Positions 36,529 through 46,558 of a stretch of DNA of 64,000 nt are shown piece after piece. The notes beneath the pieces are model-generated. The model did not search any database, had not been told where the DNA came from, and saw only the letters and a program-made list of their open reading frames with translations. A program made the translations under genes and the position numbers. Source of the DNA: Acetobacteraceae bacterium (GTDB taxonomy: Bacteria > Pseudomonadota > Alphaproteobacteria > Acetobacterales > Acetobacteraceae); NCBI GenBank assembly GCA_027482245.1, contig JAIXWG010000034.1:1-64000 (forward strand). Direction: 5' to 3'. How positions within the stretch are numbered: the first letter of the stretch is position 1; the number at the start of each line of letters is the position of its first letter.

Positions 36529-37110
36529 TTATGGCGCGGGCTCTGCGGCGGCTCCGGCCACCACGCGCTTCGGCTCCTCCTGCGCCCCTAGCAGCGCCAG
36601 CAGCCCCTCCAGCAGCTGCGCCGGCGCGGGCGGGCAGCCCGGGATCACCAGGTCCACGGGCAGCACAGGGGGCACGCCGCCCTCCACCGCATAACTGCCC
36701 TTGAAGACGCCGCCATCCGCCGCGCAATCGCCGACGGCCACCACCCAGCAGGGCTCCGGCGTGCAGGCGCGCGTGCGTTCCAGCGCCTCCCGCATGTTGC
36801 GCGTCACCGGCCCCGTCACCAGCAGCACATCGGCATGCCGTGGGGAGGCGACGAAGCGCAGCCCGAAACGCTCGAGGTCGTAGAGCACGCCGTTCAGCGC
36901 ATTCACCTCCAGCTCGCAGCCATTGCAGGACCCGGCATCGACCTGGCGGATGGCCAGGCTCCGGCCGAGCCGGGCCCGCGCCGTCGCCTCCACCCGCGCG
37001 GCCAGCGCCTCCACCACCTCCGGCGGCGGCGGGGTCGCGGGCTCCGTCAGGGGTTTGCCCACCAGCCCCTGGGCGAGGCGGGGCCAGAGCAGGCGGCCGA
37101 AGGTCTTCAT
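36529..37110 (-). CDS. Hydrogenase-4/complex-I-like small subunit (NuoB/HyfI family)
   Basis: VDAGSCNGCELEVNALN...VVAVGDCAADGGVFKGSYAV...VIPGCPPAPAQLLEGLLALL: cluster-ligand cysteines present. Confidence 0.93.
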   Translation of the reverse strand: MKTFGRLLWPRLAQGLVGKPLTEPATPPPPEVVEALAARVEATARARLGRSLAIRQVDAGSCNGCELEVNALNGVLYDLERFGLRFVASPRHADVLLVTGPVTRNMREALERTRACTPEPCWVVAVGDCAADGGVFKGSYAVEGGVPPVLPVDLVIPGCPPAPAQLLEGLLALLGAQEEPKRVVAGAAAEPAP

Positions 37111-37343
37111 GCCGTGCGCGCCATCCTCATCAGGTCATTGCCCTCGGGGTCGCGCAGCAGCAGCTCCGTCCCCGGCGGCACCCGCTCCACGATCCAGCCG
37201 ATCTCGTCCAGCGCATGGGCGCGGTCGGAATAGGCCCAGTGCTCCAGCACGCCGCGGCCGGGGTCGGGCCTGAACAGCGTGACGGTGAACTGGCCCGTGG
37301 CGCCCTTTGCGGCGCTGGCCTTGCTGTGGGCGCGACCACTCAT
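37107..37343 (-). CDS. Small hypothetical protein inside the Hyf-like operon
   Basis: MSGRAHSKASAAKGATGQFTVTLFRPDPGRGVLEHWAYSDRAHALDEIGWIVERVPPGTELLLRDPEGNDLMRMARTA; stop overlaps next gene start (ATGA). Confidence 0.6.
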   Translation of the reverse strand: MSGRAHSKASAAKGATGQFTVTLFRPDPGRGVLEHWAYSDRAHALDEIGWIVERVPPGTELLLRDPEGNDLMRMARTA

Positions 37344-37425
37344 CGGCCGAACACAGCCGAAACCGCTGCGCCTGTCACCCGACACCTTCGCGACGGCATA
37401 CCACCGGCGCGATTGACTGTCCGGC

Positions 37426-37519
37426 GGCCGGCGAAGCCGGCCGAGGCCGCGAACGCGGCCCGCGGCAAGTGCCGCGCAGCCAAGCGCGCGGAGCGCGCGC
37501 CCGGCGCTTGAGGGCACGA
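37426..37519. repeat. Array of four consecutive perfect hairpins followed by cttgagggcacga tail
   Basis: ggccggc-gaa-gccggcc; ggccgc-gaac-gcggcc; cgcggc-aagt-gccgcg; gcgcgcg-gag-cgcgcgc. Confidence 0.8.
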
Positions 37520-37557
37520 AAAACATGCCAACGAGTCGCTGCAAGCGGCCGTTGGCC

Positions 37558-39072
37558 TCACAGGTCCACACCGCTGTAGGAGCAGTTGAAGGATTTGTTG
37601 CACAGGGGGAAATCGGCGACGATGTTGCCCTCGATCGCCGCTTCCAGCAGGGGCCATTGCAGCCAGGACGGGTCGCGCGGGAAGACGGCGCGGATCAGCC
37701 CGCCATCATCCAGCGCCATCCAGGTCACGATCTCGCCCCGGAAGCCCTCCACCACCGCGATCCCCTCGCCGCCCTTCTGCGGCAGCGACTGGTGGATTTC
37801 CCCCAGTGGCGCCGCCGCCAGGGCTTCGCGGACGAGCGCGATGGAATCGGTCAACTCCGCGATCCGCACGCGGACGCGCGCATCGACATCGCCCTCGGTC
37901 CGCAGCGCCGCCTCTGGCACCAGCGACTCATAGGGCGCATGGGGCAGGGCGATGCGCGCATCGAAGGCCCGGCCGGAGGCCCGGCCCACATAACCCCCCG
38001 CCGCGAAAGCCGCCGCCAGGGCGGGCTTCAGGAAGCCCGTGCCGACCACGCGGTCCTGCAGGCTGGCATGGCTGTCATAGATCGAGACCAGCGCGGGGAC
38101 CTCCGCCTCCACCGCCGCCAGCGCGGCGAGGATGGCGTCCGTCCCGCCCGGCAGCATCTCCATCGCGAGCCCGCCGGGGATGACGCGGTCCATCATCAGG
38201 CGGTGGCCGAAGGCGGCTGCGTTGGCCCGCAGCACGCTTTCCCGCAACACGCCGAGCCGCGCATGGGGGAAGGCGAAGGCGGCGTCGTTGCAGACGAAGC
38301 CCCAGTCGTTCAGGTGGTTCGCGATCCGCTCCAGCTCCAGCATCACGCAACGCAGCCAGATGGCGCGGGGCGGCGGCGTGGTGCCGGTCGCGGATTCGGC
38401 GGCCAGGGCGAAGGCCAGAGCATGCGCGACCGTGGTGTCGCCGGAAATCCGCGCGGCGTAGCGGGCGGCGGCGCGGGGGGACTTGCCCACCATCAGCCCG
38501 ATCGTGCCCTTGTGCGTGTAGCCCAGCCGCTGTTCCAGCCGGACCACCATCTCCCCCTGCACGGTGAAGCGGAAATGCCCGGGCTCGATGATGCCGGCAT
38601 GGACGGGGCCGACGGGAATCTGGTGCCAGCCCTCGCCCTCGATGGGCAGGAATTCCGGCTGCTCCGCCGGCAGCGTCCGCCGCAGCGGCTTTGCCGCATG
38701 CGGGCCGATCACGGGCCAGCGCCCATGGTCCAGCCAGGGGCGGAGATCGACGCCGCCCTCGGCCCGCAGCGCCCAGAGGTCGCCCATCATCCGCTCGAAC
38801 CGCACCGCCCCGGGCCGGGCCGGGGAGAGCGCGGGGTAGTGCCCGTCCTGCACCGGCGTGGAGGCCAGCAGCAGCGTGTTCTCGACCTCATCGAGGAAGG
38901 CCGCGTGGACGAAGCCCGGCTCCGCCCAGAAGGACAGCAGCGCCAGCGTCGGCTCCGCGGCCAGCGCATCGCGCAGGTCGCCGAAGGCGGCGGGGGCCAG
39001 CAGGTAGCGTTCGAAGGGCGCGCAGCCCTGCGGCGCGCCGCGCCGGATCCAGGCGGAGGCCGCGCCGCTCAT
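37558..39072 (-). CDS. Hydrogenase-4/complex-I-like large subunit (HyfG/NuoCD family) lacking [NiFe] ligands
   Basis: GPVHAGIIEPGHFRFTVQGEMVVRLEQRLGYTHKGTIGLM...RISGDTTVAHALAFALAAE...LERIANHLNDWGFVCND; no CxxC pair at either end. Confidence 0.92.
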   Translation of the reverse strand: MSGAASAWIRRGAPQGCAPFERYLLAPAAFGDLRDALAAEPTLALLSFWAEPGFVHAAFLDEVENTLLLASTPVQDGHYPALSPARPGAVRFERMMGDLWALRAEGGVDLRPWLDHGRWPVIGPHAAKPLRRTLPAEQPEFLPIEGEGWHQIPVGPVHAGIIEPGHFRFTVQGEMVVRLEQRLGYTHKGTIGLMVGKSPRAAARYAARISGDTTVAHALAFALAAESATGTTPPPRAIWLRCVMLELERIANHLNDWGFVCNDAAFAFPHARLGVLRESVLRANAAAFGHRLMMDRVIPGGLAMEMLPGGTDAILAALAAVEAEVPALVSIYDSHASLQDRVVGTGFLKPALAAAFAAGGYVGRASGRAFDARIALPHAPYESLVPEAALRTEGDVDARVRVRIAELTDSIALVREALAAAPLGEIHQSLPQKGGEGIAVVEGFRGEIVTWMALDDGGLIRAVFPRDPSWLQWPLLEAAIEGNIVADFPLCNKSFNCSYSGVDL

Positions 39073-40526
39073 CCGATCATCCTCGCGCCATCCCGCAGCA
39101 GCGCGGCGAGCCCGGCGGGCGCGGCCAGCGCCAGCAGCGCCGCCAGCACCAGGTGCAGCCAGGTGGGGATGCTGGCCCAGAGCACGCCGCCCGGCAGGGT
39201 GAAGGCGCCCTCCGCCGGGTTGTCGGGCGTGGGCGCCCCGAGGCAGAGCCGCTGCATCACCGTCACCAGCGCGGCGGCGGCCACCAGCAGGCCGAGGCCG
39301 AGCGGCAGCAGCAGCCAGGGCTGCGACCCCGCGGTCGCCGCCACCATGGAGAATTCGGAGACGAAGAGCGTGAAGGGCGGCAGCCCCGCCAGCGCCGCGA
39401 TCCCCAAGGCCAGCGCCCAGCCGAGCCCCGGATGGCTCGCGGCCAGCCCCCCGATATCGGCGACCTTCTGGCTGCCCTTGATCTGCGCCGCCGCGCCGAC
39501 CGCGAAGAAGACGCCCGACTTCACCAGCGAATGCCCCAGCATGTGCAGCAGCCCCGCCAGGTTCGCGGCCGCGCCGCCGATGCCGAAGGCGAAGGTCGCC
39601 AGGCCCATATGCTCGATGCTGCTCCAGGCGAACAACCGCCGCGCATCCCGCCGCCGCCACAGCGCGAAGCCCGCCAGCAGCAGCGACGCCAGCCCGAACC
39701 CCACCATGAGATGCCCCGGCGGCAGCGCGCCGGGATGCGCGCCGACAATCGCCTTGGCCCGTAGCACGGCGAACAGCGCGGCGTTCAGCAGCAGGCCGGA
39801 CAGCACGGCGTTGATGGGCAGCGGACCCTCGGCTTCCGCATCCGGCAGCCAGGAATGCAGCGGCACCAGCCCCGCCTTGGTGCCATACCCCACCAGCAGG
39901 AAGACGAAGGCGAGGCTCAGCACGCCCGGATCGCAGCGCGCCGCCACCGCCTGCAGCGCGCCCCAGGACAGGCCCGGATCACCCGCGCCGATCACCGGCT
40001 GCGCCGCCAGGTACAGCAGGATCGTCCCGAACAGGGCGAGGGCGATGCCGACGCCGCAGAGGATGAAGAACTTCCACGCCGCCTCCACCGCGGATGGCGT
40101 GCCATGGACGGCAACCATCAGCACGGAGGCGAGCGTCGCGATCTCGATCGCCACCCACATGACGCCGAGATTGTCCGACAACAGCGCCAGGAACTGCGCG
40201 CCCATGAAGACCTGGAAGGCGGCGTGATAGGCTCGCGCGCGCAGGTCGTCGAAGCGCTCGGCATCGACCGTGGCGGCGGAGAAGGCGGCGGTGGTGAGGC
40301 CGACGATCGCCGACAGCAGCACGAAGGGCAGGTTCAGCGCATCGGTGCGCGTCCACCCCTGCACGCCGAAAGGCTGCGCCAGCAGGATCAGCGCCAGCAC
40401 CAGGCTTACCGCGGAGACGCCGAGGTTGATGAAGGCCGGCAGGCGGCCGCGCGGGGCCATTGCAGCCAGCGCGCCAGCGCCGATCCAGGGGAGGAAGACG
40501 ATCGCCCAGGACAGGTGAAATGTCAT
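39069..40526 (-). CDS. HyfF-like antiporter-type membrane subunit
   Basis: Proton-conducting transporter family: AGLVPLHSWLPDAEAEGPLPINAVLSGLLLNAALFAVLR...LAFAWSS-type IEHMGLATFAFG. Confidence 0.93.
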   Translation of the reverse strand: MTFHLSWAIVFLPWIGAGALAAMAPRGRLPAFINLGVSAVSLVLALILLAQPFGVQGWTRTDALNLPFVLLSAIVGLTTAAFSAATVDAERFDDLRARAYHAAFQVFMGAQFLALLSDNLGVMWVAIEIATLASVLMVAVHGTPSAVEAAWKFFILCGVGIALALFGTILLYLAAQPVIGAGDPGLSWGALQAVAARCDPGVLSLAFVFLLVGYGTKAGLVPLHSWLPDAEAEGPLPINAVLSGLLLNAALFAVLRAKAIVGAHPGALPPGHLMVGFGLASLLLAGFALWRRRDARRLFAWSSIEHMGLATFAFGIGGAAANLAGLLHMLGHSLVKSGVFFAVGAAAQIKGSQKVADIGGLAASHPGLGWALALGIAALAGLPPFTLFVSEFSMVAATAGSQPWLLLPLGLGLLVAAAALVTVMQRLCLGAPTPDNPAEGAFTLPGGVLWASIPTWLHLVLAALLALAAPAGLAALLRDGARMIG

Positions 40527-41200
40527 GCCGGCGGCTCCTCGCCGCGGGCGCGATGGAGGAAGGAGGTGTCCAGCGTCTCCAGCCGGTCGCGGATCTGGAA
40601 GACGACGACGCCGCCGACCACCGCCACCATCAGCACCAGCGCCGCCGTGGACAACTCCACCACCAGCGGCATGCCCGTGACGGCGACAGCACCCAGGATC
40701 AGCCCATTCTCCAGGCTCATCAGCCCGATCACCTGGCTGATGGCATTCCGCCGCGTGATCATCATCAGCATGCCCAGCAGCACGACGGAGAGCGCGAGCG
40801 CCAGATCCTCCCGCGTCAGGGCCTGGGCCTGGCCCGCCGTGATCGGCAGCACCACGAGCACCGACAACCCGACCAGCGCCACCGCCGCCAGCAGCGACGG
40901 CCCGACGCCAAGCGCCGGTTCCACCGCCCGCTGCAAGCCGAAGCGGCCGAGCACATGGCGCAGCGCCAGCGGGATCAGCACCGCCTTCGCCACCACGGCG
41001 ATCACCGCGGTCACATAGAGCCCCGCCGCCCCCTGGATGTAGCCCTGCCAGGCCGCGGCGGCGGCCAGCAGCGCGCCCTGCACGGCGAAGGCGTTGATCA
41101 CCGCATCGATCCGCCGCTGGTAGAGCAGCACGAAGGACAGCAGCAGCACCCCGCCCCCCAGCAGATGCGCGATGTCATAGGCGGGCGAGCCGAAGGTCAT
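40523..41200 (-). CDS. HyfE-like membrane subunit
   Basis: MTFGSPAYDIAHLLGGGVLLLSFVLLYQRRIDAVINAFAVQGALLAAAAAWQGY...SLENGLILGAVAVTGMPLVVEL. Confidence 0.88.
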   Translation of the reverse strand: MTFGSPAYDIAHLLGGGVLLLSFVLLYQRRIDAVINAFAVQGALLAAAAAWQGYIQGAAGLYVTAVIAVVAKAVLIPLALRHVLGRFGLQRAVEPALGVGPSLLAAVALVGLSVLVVLPITAGQAQALTREDLALALSVVLLGMLMMITRRNAISQVIGLMSLENGLILGAVAVTGMPLVVELSTAALVLMVAVVGGVVVFQIRDRLETLDTSFLHRARGEEPPA

Positions 41201-42159
41201 GCCAGCCTCGTCGAGACGAACAGCAGCAGCGCGCCGAGCAACCCCAGCAGCAGCGCCGCCCCCAGGAATTCCGGCACCCGGAAGACGCGCATCTTGGCGA
41301 TGGCGCTTTCGAAGACGGCCAGCGCCAGGCACAGCACGCCCATCTTGGCGATGAAGGCCAGCAGCCCGATCACCCACCCCACCGGCGCGAAGCCCACCGG
41401 CGCGGTACCGAACGGAAAGAAGATCGCCGCCAGCAGCGCGAGCCAGAGGGTCAGCCGCAGCGCCGCCGCAGCCTCCCACAGCGCCAGGTGGCGGCCGGAG
41501 GCCTCGAGGATCATCGCCTCATGCACCATGGTGAGTTCGAGGTGCGTGGCCGGGTTGTCCACGGGGATGCGCGCATTCTCCGCCACCGCCACGGCCAGCA
41601 GCGCCACCAGCGCCAGGCCGAGCGAGACGCGGAGCCCCAGCGCCCCCTCCTGGAACGTCCCCGCGATGGCGTCGAGGCCCGTGGTGCCAGCCAGGATCGC
41701 GAAGCTCATCACCGCCAGCAGCAGCGCCGGTTCCGCCAGCGCGGCGAAGCTCATCTCCCGCGCCGCGCCGAGCCCGCCGAAGGCGGTGCCCACGTCCAGG
41801 CCCGCCAGCGCCATCGCGACGCGCCCCAGCGCCAGCAGCCCCGCGATCAGCACGAGGTCCGCGAGCGGCGCGAAGGCCATGCCCCGCGCGAAGGACGGCA
41901 CCAGCGCCACCGCGGCCAGGGCGGCCCCGGCGCCGAGATAGGGCGCCGCCCGGCTGATCCAGCTGGCATTCTCCGCCAGCACCGGCCGCTTCAGCAGCAG
42001 CTTGCGGAAATCCCGCAGCGGCTGCAGCGGGCTGGCGCCGATCCGGCCCATCATGCGCGCCTTCAGCCATCGGATGACGCCGACGACCAGCGGTGCGGCC
42101 ACCAGCATCAGCGCCAGGTGGATCGCCTGGGTCAGCAGCCCCCAGAGGAACGCCATCAT
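41197..42159 (-). CDS. HyfC/NuoH-like membrane subunit
   Basis: MGRIGASPLQPLRDFRKLLLKRP...AVAENARIPVDNPATHLELTMVHEAMILE. Confidence 0.93.
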   Translation of the reverse strand: MMAFLWGLLTQAIHLALMLVAAPLVVGVIRWLKARMMGRIGASPLQPLRDFRKLLLKRPVLAENASWISRAAPYLGAGAALAAVALVPSFARGMAFAPLADLVLIAGLLALGRVAMALAGLDVGTAFGGLGAAREMSFAALAEPALLLAVMSFAILAGTTGLDAIAGTFQEGALGLRVSLGLALVALLAVAVAENARIPVDNPATHLELTMVHEAMILEASGRHLALWEAAAALRLTLWLALLAAIFFPFGTAPVGFAPVGWVIGLLAFIAKMGVLCLALAVFESAIAKMRVFRVPEFLGAALLLGLLGALLLFVSTRLA

Positions 42160-44195
42160 CGTGCCTCCAGCCAGGCGATCAGCGCCAGCAGCGCGACCAG
42201 CGTGCCGAAGGGCAGCATGAGGCATTGGGCGAGGGTCAGGTCGCGCAGCCTCTCCGTCCGCGCCACCACCGAATCCCGCAGCCGGGCGAGGGGGGCCAGC
42301 AGGAAGCGGTCGGAGGGATCGGCGAAGCCGGCCTCGATCCGTGCCGGGCCGGGATCGCCGGGCGACGGCATCGCCACGCGTTCATGCACCGCCAGCACCG
42401 GGTTCCCCAGCATCCGCCGCAGCGGCTGGCCGAGGCCCGCCGCGCTGGGCTGGGTGATCGGGTCGCCGAAGGGCAGGTGCTGCGGCGGCGCGATGAAGCC
42501 GCAATCCCAGGCCGGGCTCCGCGCGACACCTGCTGGCGCCCGGCGCTTCACGGCGAAGACGATCGCCGCGCCCAGCGCGGCCAGCAGCAGCGCGATGCCG
42601 AGCGGCATGTAGGCCCCCGCGCCATCGCCGACGCTGATGGCGCCGATCGTCGCGCGTTCCGTCACATCCTGCCGCACCAGCACCTGCAGCGCGCCTTCCG
42701 CCAGCGCCAGCATCGGCCCCGGCAGCAGGCCGAACAGCACGGTCAGCCCCGCCGGCAGCAGCAGCGCGGCACGCGCGAACCAGGGACCGTCCTGCGCGCC
42801 CGCGGCGCGGGGCGTGCGGGGCCGGCCGAGGAAGGCCATGCCGAACAGTCGCACCATCGCCGCCGCCGCCAGCGCGGCCGCCAGCGCGGCCATCGCCACA
42901 ACCCCCACCGCCAGCACCTGGAAGGCCAGGTCGCCGACCCGCCAGGCCGCCAGCAGCGCCTGCAGCAGCAGCCATTCGCCGGCGAAGCCCGACAGCGGCG
43001 GCAGGCTCGCCGCCGCGCCGACACCCACCAGCACCGCCGCCGCGGTCCAGGGCATGGCGTGGATCAGCCCGCCGAGGCGATCGAGCCGCCGGGACGCCGC
43101 GCCGTGCAGCACCTCCCCCAGCCCCAGGAACAGCAAGGATTTGAACAGCGCGTGGTTCAGCGCGTGCAGCATCGCCGCCCCCGCCGCCAGCCCCGCCAGC
43201 GCGCCGAGATCCGCCGCCCGGAAGGCGCAGGCGAGGCCGAGGCCGATGGCGATCAGCCCCACATTCTCGATGGTGGAGCAGGCCAGCAGGGTCTTGCTGT
43301 CCTCCTCCAGGTTGGCGCGCAGCGCGCCCAGCACGGCCGATGCCGCGCCCAGCACCAGCAGCGGCACGCCCCACCAGATCGGCTGCGCGGGGCCGCTGAG
43401 GTCCAGCAGCAGCCGCGCCAGGACATAGAGCGCGACCTTGGTCATGGCGCCCGACATCAGGGCGGAGACGTGACTCGGCGCCGCGGGATGGGCGAGCGGC
43501 AGCCAGGCATGGAGTGGCACCAGCCCCGCCTTGGCCCCCGCGCCCGCCACGGCCAGCGCCAGGATGGCGGCGGCGCGCCAGCCCTCCGGCGGCGCGCTCC
43601 GCATGGCGGCGAAGCCGATATCGCCGCCCACGGCCAGCAGCCCGATGGCCGGCGCCAGGCAGAGGCCGGAGAGGATGGCGAAGATCAAATAGAGCCGCGC
43701 GGCGCGCCGGTTCTCCGCACTGTCATGGTCTGCCGCCACGAGCGCCCAGCTGGCGAGCGACATGGCCTCGAACCCCAGCAGCAGCGTCAGGCCGTCGGCG
43801 GCCAGCAGGGTCAGCGCCATGGCGCCGAGGAACAGCGGATAGGCCGCCAGCACGCGGGGCGGCGCGTGGCTGTAGTGCGCCAGCGCGAACAGCGCCGAAC
43901 AGGCGCCCGCCAGGCCCAGCAGCAGCAGGAACCAGGCGGAAAGCCCATCGACCGCCAGCAGCATCGGCGCCCAGCTGCCGGGCATCAGCGGCTGCGGCGC
44001 TGGCGCGCCACCCAGCAGCGCCGCCAGCCCGCAGGCCGCGAAGACCAGGGCGGCGGCCAGCGACCCGCCATGCACGACCATGCCGATGGGCAGCCCACCC
44101 GGCAGCATCAGGGGCAGCGCCCGCCCGGCCGCCAGCACCGGCAGCACGGCCAGCACCACCAGCCCGGCCAGCGTCAGGGAGAGCGCCGTCAGCAC
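42156..44195 (-). CDS. HyfB-like antiporter-type membrane subunit (NuoL family)
   Basis: AGLVPLHAWLPLAHPAAPSHVSALMSGAMTKVALYVLARLLLDL; 679 aa. Confidence 0.94.
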   Translation of the reverse strand: MLTALSLTLAGLVVLAVLPVLAAGRALPLMLPGGLPIGMVVHGGSLAAALVFAACGLAALLGGAPAPQPLMPGSWAPMLLAVDGLSAWFLLLLGLAGACSALFALAHYSHAPPRVLAAYPLFLGAMALTLLAADGLTLLLGFEAMSLASWALVAADHDSAENRRAARLYLIFAILSGLCLAPAIGLLAVGGDIGFAAMRSAPPEGWRAAAILALAVAGAGAKAGLVPLHAWLPLAHPAAPSHVSALMSGAMTKVALYVLARLLLDLSGPAQPIWWGVPLLVLGAASAVLGALRANLEEDSKTLLACSTIENVGLIAIGLGLACAFRAADLGALAGLAAGAAMLHALNHALFKSLLFLGLGEVLHGAASRRLDRLGGLIHAMPWTAAAVLVGVGAAASLPPLSGFAGEWLLLQALLAAWRVGDLAFQVLAVGVVAMAALAAALAAAAMVRLFGMAFLGRPRTPRAAGAQDGPWFARAALLLPAGLTVLFGLLPGPMLALAEGALQVLVRQDVTERATIGAISVGDGAGAYMPLGIALLLAALGAAIVFAVKRRAPAGVARSPAWDCGFIAPPQHLPFGDPITQPSAAGLGQPLRRMLGNPVLAVHERVAMPSPGDPGPARIEAGFADPSDRFLLAPLARLRDSVVARTERLRDLTLAQCLMLPFGTLVALLALIAWLEAR

Positions 44196-44425
44196 GGCAG
44201 GGCGGGGATGCGCGTCACGCCCCGGACGATACGCAGCAAGCCGGCGGGGCAGAAGGGGGAGGCTGGATCATGGACAGGCCGCAACGACCCGGCCATGCCC
44301 GCGGTTGCATCCCAGGCCAACCGCCGATTGGCCCCTTGGCCTCCGGGATGATGCGGCGCTACATGGCGCGCCTTGGCGCCCCGGCGCCCAAACCACAGGG
44401 ACAGACTGGGAGTGCGCCCGTTTCC

Positions 44426-44977
44426 ATGGGCCCCTTGCTCGCCTTCAGTCGCGCCGTCGATGCGCTGAACACCGCCTTCGGCCGGCTGGCCGATTGGCTG
44501 GTCCTGCTCGCCTGCCTGGTCAGCGCGGGCAATGCCTTCGCGCGCTACGGCTTCTCCTCCGGCTCCAACGCCTGGCTGGAGGTGCAGTGGTACTTCTTCG
44601 CCGCCGTCGTGATGCTGGGCGCGGCCTATACGCTGTTCCGGAACGAGCATGTCCGCGTGGACCTGATCTACGGCTCCATCAGCGAAAGGGCGCGGCTCTG
44701 GGTCGATGTGGTCGGCATCGCGCTGTTCCTGCTGCCCGCCATGGTGCTGCTGGCCTGGATGACCTGGCCCTTCTTCGTGGAGAGCTGGATGCGGGCGGAG
44801 ACCTCCTCCTCCCCCGGCGGCCTCATCCGCTGGCCGGTGAAGCTGCTGCTGCCGCTGGGCTTCGCGCTGATGGCGGTGCAGGGGCTGTCGGAGCTGGTGA
44901 AGCGCGTGGCGCTGCTGCGCGGCATCAAGCTGGAGGACGGCCGCCTCCACGCCAGCTACGCCCGGCCGGACCAGTAG
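44426..44977 (+). CDS. dctQ: TRAP transporter small permease subunit (DctQ)
   Basis: LVLLACLVSAGNAFARYGFSSGSNAWLEVQWYFFAAVVMLGAAYTLFRNEHVRVDLIYG. Confidence 0.92.
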   Translation: MGPLLAFSRAVDALNTAFGRLADWLVLLACLVSAGNAFARYGFSSGSNAWLEVQWYFFAAVVMLGAAYTLFRNEHVRVDLIYGSISERARLWVDVVGIALFLLPAMVLLAWMTWPFFVESWMRAETSSSPGGLIRWPVKLLLPLGFALMAVQGLSELVKRVALLRGIKLEDGRLHASYARPDQ

Positions 44978-45007
44978 GCCTGGGATGGAGCACCAGCTTC
45001 TCTTTTC

Positions 45008-45116
45008 GGCCGCCAAGGGCGGCCCACGCACAGCGCTCGCCCCTGGCCCGGCGCCACAGCGCGTCGGCGCGCAAGGCAAGGCCGCGGATGCGGCCGCCCG
45101 CCACTTGAGGGCACGA
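45008..45116. repeat. Second GC-rich hairpin repeat with the same cttgagggcacga tail, between dctQ and dctM
   Basis: ggccgcc-aag-ggcggcc; ggccgc-ggat-gcggcc; tail cttgagggcacga ends at the dctM ATG. Confidence 0.75.
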
Positions 45117-46558
45117 TGAACATCATCGCTTACATCGCCTCGATCCCGCATGCGGACATCATGCCGCCCCTGATGTTCGCGGGGCTGATCGTCTTCCTGC
45201 TGATCGGCTTCCCCGCCGCCTTCTCGCTCGCCGCCGTCGGGCTGTTCTTCGGCTTCATCTCGGTCTGGCTGGGCTTCTTCCCGGAAGCCTGGATGTTCAA
45301 CCTGCCGCTCCGCATCTTCAACATCCTGTCGAACGACCTGCTGCTGGCGATCCCCTTCTTCACGCTGATGGGCGCCATCCTGGAACGCTGCGGCCTGGCG
45401 GAGGACCTGCTGGAAGGCACCGGGCAGCTCTTCGGCAAGGTGCCGGGCGGGCTGGCCTATGCGGTGATCATCGTCGGCGCGATCCTCGGCGCCATCACCG
45501 GCACGGTGGCCGCTTCCGTCATCGCCATGGGCATGATCAGCCTGCCCATCATGATGCGCACGGGCTACGACATGCGCATCGCGACCGGCGTCATCGCGGC
45601 GTCGGGCACCATCACCCAGGTGATCCCGCCATCGCTGGTGCTGATCGTGCTGGGTGACCAGCTCGGCCAGAGCGTCGGCGACATGTATGCGGGCGCCATC
45701 GGCCCGTCCTTCCTGCAGCTGGCGCTGTTCATCGCCTTCATCGCGCTGGTCAGCATCTTCGCCCCCCACAAGGTGCCGCCCCTGCCGGATGATTTGCTGG
45801 AGCCGCGGACCTGGCGCCTCTGGTGGCGCGTGCTGAAGGGCATGGTGCCCTCCATCGTGCTGATCTTCATGGTGCTCGGCACGATCTTCCTCGGCCTCGC
45901 CACGCCGACGGAAGCGGGCGCGATGGGCGTGGTCGGCGCGCTGGCGCTGGCCGCCATCAACCGGCGCCTGACGCGCCCGCTGGTGCGGGAAGCCATGGGC
46001 ACGACCATGCGCATCACCGCCATGGTCATCTTCATCCTGATCGGCGCGACGGTCTTCTCGCTGGTGTTCCAGGGCGTCGATGGCGGCATTTGGATCGAGC
46101 ACCTGCTGGCGCAGCTGCCGGGCGGCCAGACCGGCTTCCTGGTCTTCGTCAACGTCTTCATCTTCTTCCTGGCCTTCTTCCTCGACTTCTTCGAGATCGC
46201 CTTCATCGTCATCCCGCTGCTGGCCCCGGTCGCGAAGAACCTCGGCATCGACCTGGTGTGGTTCGGCGTCCTCATCTGCATCAACCTGCAGACCAGCTTC
46301 ATGCACCCGCCCTTCGGCTTCGCGCTGTTCTACCTGCGCGGCATCGCGCCGAAATCGGTGCTGACGCGGGACATCTACTGGGGGGCGGTGCCCTGGCTCG
46401 GCCTGCAGCTGATCCTGGTGGCGATCGTCATCCTGTGGCCGGAGAGCGTGACCTACTGGCTGGACCGCGGCCCCCGCGTCGATCCGAGCACGGTGATCAT
46501 CGACCTGCCCCCGCCGCCCGCGCAGCCGGACATGCCGGCGGTACCGGTGTTCCAGTAA
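45116..46558 (+). CDS. dctM: TRAP transporter large permease subunit (DctM)
   Basis: MGAILERCGLAEDLLEGTGQLFGKVPGGLAYAVIIVGAILGAITGTVAASVIAMGMISLPIMMRTGYDMRIATGVIAASGTITQVIPPSLVLIVLGD. Confidence 0.95.
   Translation: MNIIAYIASIPHADIMPPLMFAGLIVFLLIGFPAAFSLAAVGLFFGFISVWLGFFPEAWMFNLPLRIFNILSNDLLLAIPFFTLMGAILERCGLAEDLLEGTGQLFGKVPGGLAYAVIIVGAILGAITGTVAASVIAMGMISLPIMMRTGYDMRIATGVIAASGTITQVIPPSLVLIVLGDQLGQSVGDMYAGAIGPSFLQLALFIAFIALVSIFAPHKVPPLPDDLLEPRTWRLWWRVLKGMVPSIVLIFMVLGTIFLGLATPTEAGAMGVVGALALAAINRRLTRPLVREAMGTTMRITAMVIFILIGATVFSLVFQGVDGGIWIEHLLAQLPGGQTGFLVFVNVFIFFLAFFLDFFEIAFIVIPLLAPVAKNLGIDLVWFGVLICINLQTSFMHPPFGFALFYLRGIAPKSVLTRDIYWGAVPWLGLQLILVAIVILWPESVTYWLDRGPRVDPSTVIIDLPPPPAQPDMPAVPVFQ

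Follow-up and report, generated by a model that had tools for sequence, protein, structure and literature searches.

The 64,000-nucleotide stretch analysed here (the window; positions 1 to 64,000 of contig JAIXWG010000034.1 from an Acetobacteraceae bacterium) carries at 36529-44195, on the minus strand, an operon for HyfB-, C-, E-, F-, G- and I-like subunits of a membrane complex related to hydrogenase-4 and respiratory complex I. These six subunits had been described in an initial annotation made from the letters alone, and the open reading frames (ORFs), together with Pfam and NCBIfam searches, agree with that description as follows.

42156..44195, minus strand: HyfB-like antiporter subunit, 679 residues from the GTG at 44195, later starts being possible (Pfam Proton_antipo_M, 4.8e-44; NCBIfam hydrogenase 4 subunit B, 1.3e-166, under the model's cut-off; nearest PDB chain 7z0s_C, HycC, 3.1e-47)
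41197..42159, minus strand: HyfC/NuoH-like subunit, 320 residues (Pfam NADHdh, 5e-33)
40523..41200, minus strand: HyfE-like subunit, 225 residues (NCBIfam hydrogenase 4 membrane subunit, 2.1e-19)
39069..40526, minus strand: HyfF-like antiporter subunit, 485 residues (NCBIfam hydrogenase 4 subunit F, 3.2e-160, over the cut-off)
37558..39072, minus strand: HyfG/NuoCD-like large subunit without nickel ligands, 504 residues (Pfam Complex1_49kDa, 3.6e-28; nearest PDB chain 7z0s_E, HycE, 2.9e-42)
37107..37343, minus strand: small ORF x, 78 residues, overlapping the HyfI start by ATGA (56-95% identity across a dozen Falsiroseomonas/Roseomonas loci; no match in a Pfam search)
36529..37110, minus strand: HyfI/NuoB-like small subunit, 193 residues (Pfam Oxidored_q6, 4e-33; nearest PDB chain 7z0s_G, HycG, 2.6e-38)

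The reported ATGA overlaps, four bases each, are present at the B/C, C/E, E/F and F/G junctions. The HyfG and HyfI genes are not contiguous: a gap of 215 bp and the 78-residue ORF, which had been missed, lie between them. As the initial annotation had noted, the operon holds neither HyfA/HyfH ferredoxin subunits nor an NADH module (NuoEFG); HycB/HycF-type subunits and FdhF are likewise missing from it. The reported lack of hyp genes extends to the whole host genome, where a search gave no match to hypD (the control search recovers hypD in E. coli and others).

Energy-converting-hydrogenase-related (Ehr) complexes and the exact hyfBCEFGI operon have already been published, and the window operon belongs to this kind. 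It combines core homologues of group 4 hydrogenases and complex I with antiporter-like subunits, and it has no CxxC nickel ligands. In a tree of HyfG the window protein groups, on a starred branch, with the Ehr of Cupriavidus metallidurans (L138) and Rhizobium (L127), apart from the HycE/HyfG hydrogenases. The original filing as Ehr is thus upheld, and the literature concurs that the reaction of these complexes is unresolved (PMC10284858; PMC10432482).

The closest solved structure to HyfG is E. coli HycE (7z0s, 2.9e-42), followed by Mbh and complex I. In the Ehr alignment, two segments of HyfG stand where a hydrogenase binds nickel.

38422..38451, minus strand: RISGDTTVAH, HyfG residues 208-217, in place of the hydrogenase RxCGxC...H
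37558..37599, minus strand: NKSFNCSYSGVDL plus the stop, in place of DPCxxC, ending at the hydrogenase processing site

For the first two ligands, RVCGIC of HycE aligns with RISGDT of HyfG, and for the last two, DPCYSC aligns with Ser498 and Gly501. A cysteine near the ligand site, Cys497, is not aligned with any ligand and is missing in betaproteobacterial and other members. The first ligand position is Ser in 50 of 52 aligned Ehr HyfG sequences and Cys in none, so the RISGDTTVAH of the initial annotation is not a chance reading; HycE, the HyfG of hydrogenase and the Ech-like subunit have Cys at both positions of the first motif. The C-terminus, DFPLCNKSFNCSYSGVDL, which had been described as replacing CxxC and lacking a processing extension, is near-invariant across Ehr. 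HycE runs on for 32 residues past the shared end point of Ehr and NuoD, indicating that Ehr needs no C-terminal processing.

What stands at the former ligand sites is itself conserved. The first motif keeps R in 52/52 sequences, S210 in 50/52, G211 in 51/52, D212 in 50/52 and S/T213 in 48/52, and at the C-terminus N492, K493, G501 and L504 are each found in 50-51 of 51. The residue set at the former active site comprises E163, S210, G211, D212, S/T213, N492, K493, Y499 and the C-terminal DL, and the pocket is invariant across alpha-, beta- and actinobacterial Ehr. As judged from the alignments, a conserved putative pocket, RxSGD[ST] plus NKSF...SYSGxDL, has taken the place of the lost NiFe site, a finding that is new here. 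Such conservation is not what would be expected of a site in decay. An AlphaFold model of HyfG, built from 11 sequences, had a mean pLDDT (predicted local distance difference test score) of 58, too poor to use, and we therefore make no structural claim. Database labels for such HyfG proteins are misleading, ranging from 'NADH-quinone oxidoreductase subunit C' and 'nickel-dependent hydrogenase large subunit' to 'HypE'.

The same alignments bear on whether the complex might still be a hydrogenase or a formate hydrogenlyase, with its ligands elsewhere or a formate dehydrogenase attached. HyfF does exceed the hydrogenase-4 cut-off, and formate oxidation has been suggested for an Ehr-type operon (PMC7735108). 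However, all four nickel ligands are lost in 30 relatives, the host genome has no hypD and the operon no HycB, HycF or FdhF, whereas true NiFe hydrogenases from the same searches (L131, L136) keep the cysteines and carry such genes. The alignment revealed no CxxC ligands at any other place in the large subunit, a finding that the initial annotation had named as speaking against its own reading, and the hypD search gave no sign of nickel maturation. A hydrogenase is already contradicted and retains next to no probability.

The small subunit and the membrane subunits carry two further sets of conserved residues.

36634..36927, minus strand: four Cys of one [4Fe-4S] cluster, HyfI C62, C65, C129 and C159 (46-47 of 48 Ehr sequences)
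42975..43769, minus strand: HyfB proton-channel residues E143 (transmembrane helix TM5), K222 (TM7), K253 (TM8) and E407 (TM12), by alignment to NuoM and A. lipoferum HyfB

The cluster cysteines lie in the motifs SCNGCE, GDCA and PGCPP, correctly recognised at the outset, and all align to Cys of HycG, HyfI and the Ech-like small subunit. In HyfB, E143, K222 and E407 are present in 47/47 Ehr and K253 in 43/47; in HyfF, E128, K217 and E391 are kept in 50/51, and nearly all have Asn248 at the TM8 position. The acidic residues E143, E194, E208 and E214 of HyfC occur in 48/48, and E164 and E182 of HyfE in 49/50. The antiporter-like subunits thus have the Glu/Lys channel residues expected of an energy-converting ion pump.

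We propose, with a probability of roughly 0.5, that the complex encoded in the window pumps ions by means of a redox reaction at a new active site, distinct from that of hydrogenases. A soluble low-potential carrier would feed electrons into the single HyfI cluster, and these would reduce, or be taken from, a substrate other than H2 in the remade HyfG pocket; the reaction there would drive ion pumping through HyfB and HyfF, in the way that relatives use H2 or quinone chemistry. A cytoplasmic redox reaction coupled to ion translocation has been suspected for Ehr (PMC6349859). Of the two options in the initial annotation, a redox-linked or a pure ion-pumping module, the first is favoured by the conservation of cluster and pocket. 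From these residues we infer catalysis in the pocket, passage of electrons through the cluster and pumping of ions.

A comparison within Acetobacteraceae links pocket and pump. We drew 97 operons (L120-122 included), which fall into two main classes. Type A resembles the window operon, with the RxSGD pocket, NKSF, the EKKE residues of HyfB and EKE of HyfF. In type B, HyfB has lost K222 and E407 in all aligned sequences, the aligned HyfF lack K217, HyfC lacks E143 and further acidic residues, and HyfG lacks E163, D212 and the N-K pair. Upstream of HyfG, nearly all type B operons still have membrane ORFs whose size and number of helices are as expected, and all four cluster cysteines are present in 43/47 of their HyfI. 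The best-conserved residues of the type B large subunit are H187, G189 and R208; the H[KR]G segment adjoins cluster N2 in complex I. The type B loci are these.

Type B: L162-L189, L193-L196, L198, L199, L202-L207, L209-L214, L120-L122, L233, L237, L241, L243, L247-L249, L253

A single Lys motif in L194 was judged spurious and the locus assigned to type B; L105, with an odd, frameshift-like HyfI C-terminus, was not used; L208, a true NiFe hydrogenase, and a third subfamily were excluded from the counts. Among 89 operons, all 32 with an intact pump keep the first pocket motif (SGD-type) and 30 keep N-K; among the 57 pump-less ones the respective numbers are 1 and 0. The four cluster cysteines are present in HyfI of 29/29 pump-intact operons. 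When the pocket columns are excluded from the HyfG tree, type B nests inside the type A clade, and several genomes (G464, G507, G531, G480) carry both. Many acetic acid bacteria thus have what is, on these alignments, a derived type B, with pump residues and pocket lost and cluster cysteines and four membrane subunits kept, and with purifying selection acting on it even where complex I is missing. This class is new here, a narrow literature search having found no description of it. Its usual site is between holC/pepA and pssA/psd (34-36 of 56 loci), and 11 of the 15 near-complete type B genomes tested lack a complex I NADH subunit.

The residue patterns and the joint losses, plain at the level of sequence in a comparison of some 90 relatives, point to a new pocket and a proton pump that act in concert. 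Since the pocket is lost with the pump and the cluster is retained, the pocket may be read as the site of the pump-driving reaction in type A, and the cluster as having a role of its own. Specifically, the former NiFe pocket (S210-G-D212-S/T213, E163, N492-K493) would be a new active site mechanically tied to the pump, and type B would have lost both together more than once while keeping the cluster site and six subunits under selection; we give this proposal an even chance. If it is true, type B is a complex I relative that handles membrane electrons without pumping.

Selection also bears on whether the operon is a vestige without function, as the missing partner genes and the lost catalytic ligands might suggest. 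Against this, the six ORFs are intact, the pocket is invariant across phyla, the operon is widely retained in Acetobacteraceae, and dN/dS (the ratio of nonsynonymous to synonymous substitution rates) of operon genes in sister pairs is 0.08-0.44, well below 1, which demonstrates purifying selection in these comparisons. A vestigial operon is already contradicted and very improbable.

Several observations weigh against a redox-driven pump. The strongest is the Ehr of Allomeiothermus silvanus plasmid pMESIL01 (L133, 11269-12141), known from this one plasmid record, whose HyfI lacks all four cluster cysteines (AGNTGLDDTE, GNEAIGG, PGSPARP) and carries a half-ferredoxin stretch, CVLCGRC, fused at its N-terminus. 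The operon is otherwise intact and keeps the pump residues and NKSF, so electron transfer is perhaps dispensable in some members. In addition, no electron-donor gene was linked to the operon across 47 loci and the annotated plasmids, where neighbours vary, and the HyfA/HyfH ferredoxin subunits are absent. The third subfamily (L191, L192, L197, L201, L137) has no N-K pair and keeps the HyfF pump residues in the four members scored. Finally, the co-loss of pocket and pump amounts to 4 changes on the best tree, with 2 independent pairs on well-supported branches; with so few, a sign test is not significant.

The A. silvanus operon and the lack of a linked donor would both suit a non-redox ion transporter, in which ligand binding or pH sensing at the former active site gates an Mrp-like HyfB/HyfF antiporter and the cluster is structural; HyfB also resembles Mrp antiporter subunits. 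However, the cluster cysteines are the best-kept feature elsewhere, even in the pump-less type B, which makes such a transporter distinctly unlikely.

The proton gradient might instead push electrons uphill via the same cluster, with, say, quinol as the donor and a ferredoxin-type acceptor. The anatomy required is identical to that of a forward pump, and the operon occurs in aerobes equipped with complex I, to which another forward pump would add little. On the other hand, the quinone-site residues of complex I are all replaced, with Gly211 at the position of the RxDY Tyr and HAGIIEPGH where complex I has the HPSTHG loop, and no ferredoxin-dependent gene is linked. Reverse electron transport is possible, though on the unlikely side, and a forward redox-driven pump remains the reading we prefer.

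The six-gene operon has been described in C. metallidurans and C. eutrophus H16 (PMC2864759), in Acidithiobacillus ferrooxidans, where it was classed as non-hydrogenase (PMC7735108), and in Nitrospira (PMC5596200), so that the window operon is less unusual than the first reading implied. Published proposals for Ehr include formate oxidation, coupling to CO dehydrogenase and quinone reduction. A literature search found no mutant phenotype for H16_A2196-2201 or Rmet_4666. Among 385 alphaproteobacterial genomes, 37 match at 1e-40 or better, or 35 after removal of two Ech-type hits, and 27 of these 35 lack hypD. A best match at least as good as 1e-38 was obtained in about 213 of the 250 Acetobacteraceae genomes searched, a frequency that is new here and includes a few other types; matches of 1e-20 to 1e-31 are NuoD. 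Many Rhizobium and Azospirillum plasmids also carry the operon, and it is present in Cupriavidus, Burkholderia, Variovorax, Rhodococcus and Allomeiothermus as well.

In the search for a donor among the neighbours of the 47 loci and annotated plasmids, the sole recurring gene was that of a regulator of the XRE-type helix-turn-helix family just upstream of hyfB, seen in about 10 loci as well as in Rhizobium, Methylovirgula and Bradyrhizobium. Genes labelled 'Fused MFS/spermidine synthase' (MFS, major facilitator superfamily) and YoaK-family genes recur by the Ehr operons of Variovorax, Burkholderia and Rhizobium plasmids (L134, L135, L139). Divergent genes for a tripartite ATP-independent periplasmic (TRAP) transporter, upstream of the window operon at 44395-46558, are kept in most Roseomonas-like loci and absent in others; their adjacency probably reflects just a conserved location. 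In two small alphaproteobacterial genomes with hypD (L123, L124), an Ech-type operon adjoins a ferredoxin gene and a pyruvate:ferredoxin-oxidoreductase-like gene.

The host is of Falsiroseomonas/Roseomonas type, the genera of the nearest loci, and its genome (6.39 Mb, 71 contigs) is 99.6% complete with 5.4% contamination. We found no second Ehr copy in it; its one other NuoD-type protein lies in a complete nuo operon on a separate contig. Besides hypD and nuo, the initial annotation had called for a search for detached partner subunits, which returned, at G000:C21:123827-127061, a formate dehydrogenase-like molybdoenzyme beside a distant HycB-like iron-sulfur protein, both unlinked to the operon. 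Formate dehydrogenase and CO dehydrogenase were rejected as partners, their relatives in the host genome being unlinked and below curated cut-offs. In other Roseomonas-like genera the place of the 78-residue ORF between hyfG and hyfI is taken by a Glyoxalase_7 (PF19581) gene, at L029 (11500-11883) and in gaps like it at L023, L027, L033, L037, L039, L040, L044, L046, L048, L050 and L058; L023 has both.

Ehr is present in many aerobes, among them ammonia-oxidizing archaea, comammox Nitrospira, rhizobia, Cupriavidus and Acetobacteraceae. The comparison supplies residues worth mutating, tractable hosts, and natural variants without the pump (type B) or without the cluster (A. silvanus), which offer a way to tell whether, in the complex I superfamily, pocket, pumping and electron transfer can be uncoupled from one another.

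Compared to known systems, the window operon is closest to the published hyfBCEFGI operons (C. metallidurans Rmet_4666-4671, C. eutrophus H16_A2196-2201, At. ferrooxidans and Nitrospira), which have the identical six genes in the same order and no HyfA/D/H/J. HyfG of C. metallidurans shares 47% identity and the pocket motifs with the HyfG of the window; the window lineage differs in the extra 78-residue ORF between G and I. The nearest solved relatives of HyfG, HyfI and HyfB are in E. coli formate hydrogenlyase (HycBCDEFG, PDB 7z0s) and hydrogenase-4, from which the window operon differs in lacking nickel ligands, a C-terminal extension, ferredoxin-type subunits, formate dehydrogenase and hyp genes. 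With respiratory complex I (NuoB, CD, H, K, L, M, N) it shares homologous core subunits, and HyfG ends at the NuoD stop point; unlike complex I, it has no NADH module, a CxxC in HyfI where NuoB has tandem Cys, and no quinone-site Tyr. Pyrococcus Mbx/Mbs is a hydrogenase-derived membrane complex without hydrogenase function, and its match to the window complex is weak (HyfG, 1.2e-11 to 6u8y_L). Mbx has been named as a hydrogenase-related complex (PMC6349859). Type B Ehr, finally, has the six-gene order, the ancestry (same clade) and the cluster cysteines in common with the window operon, and differs from it in the loss of pump residues and pocket.

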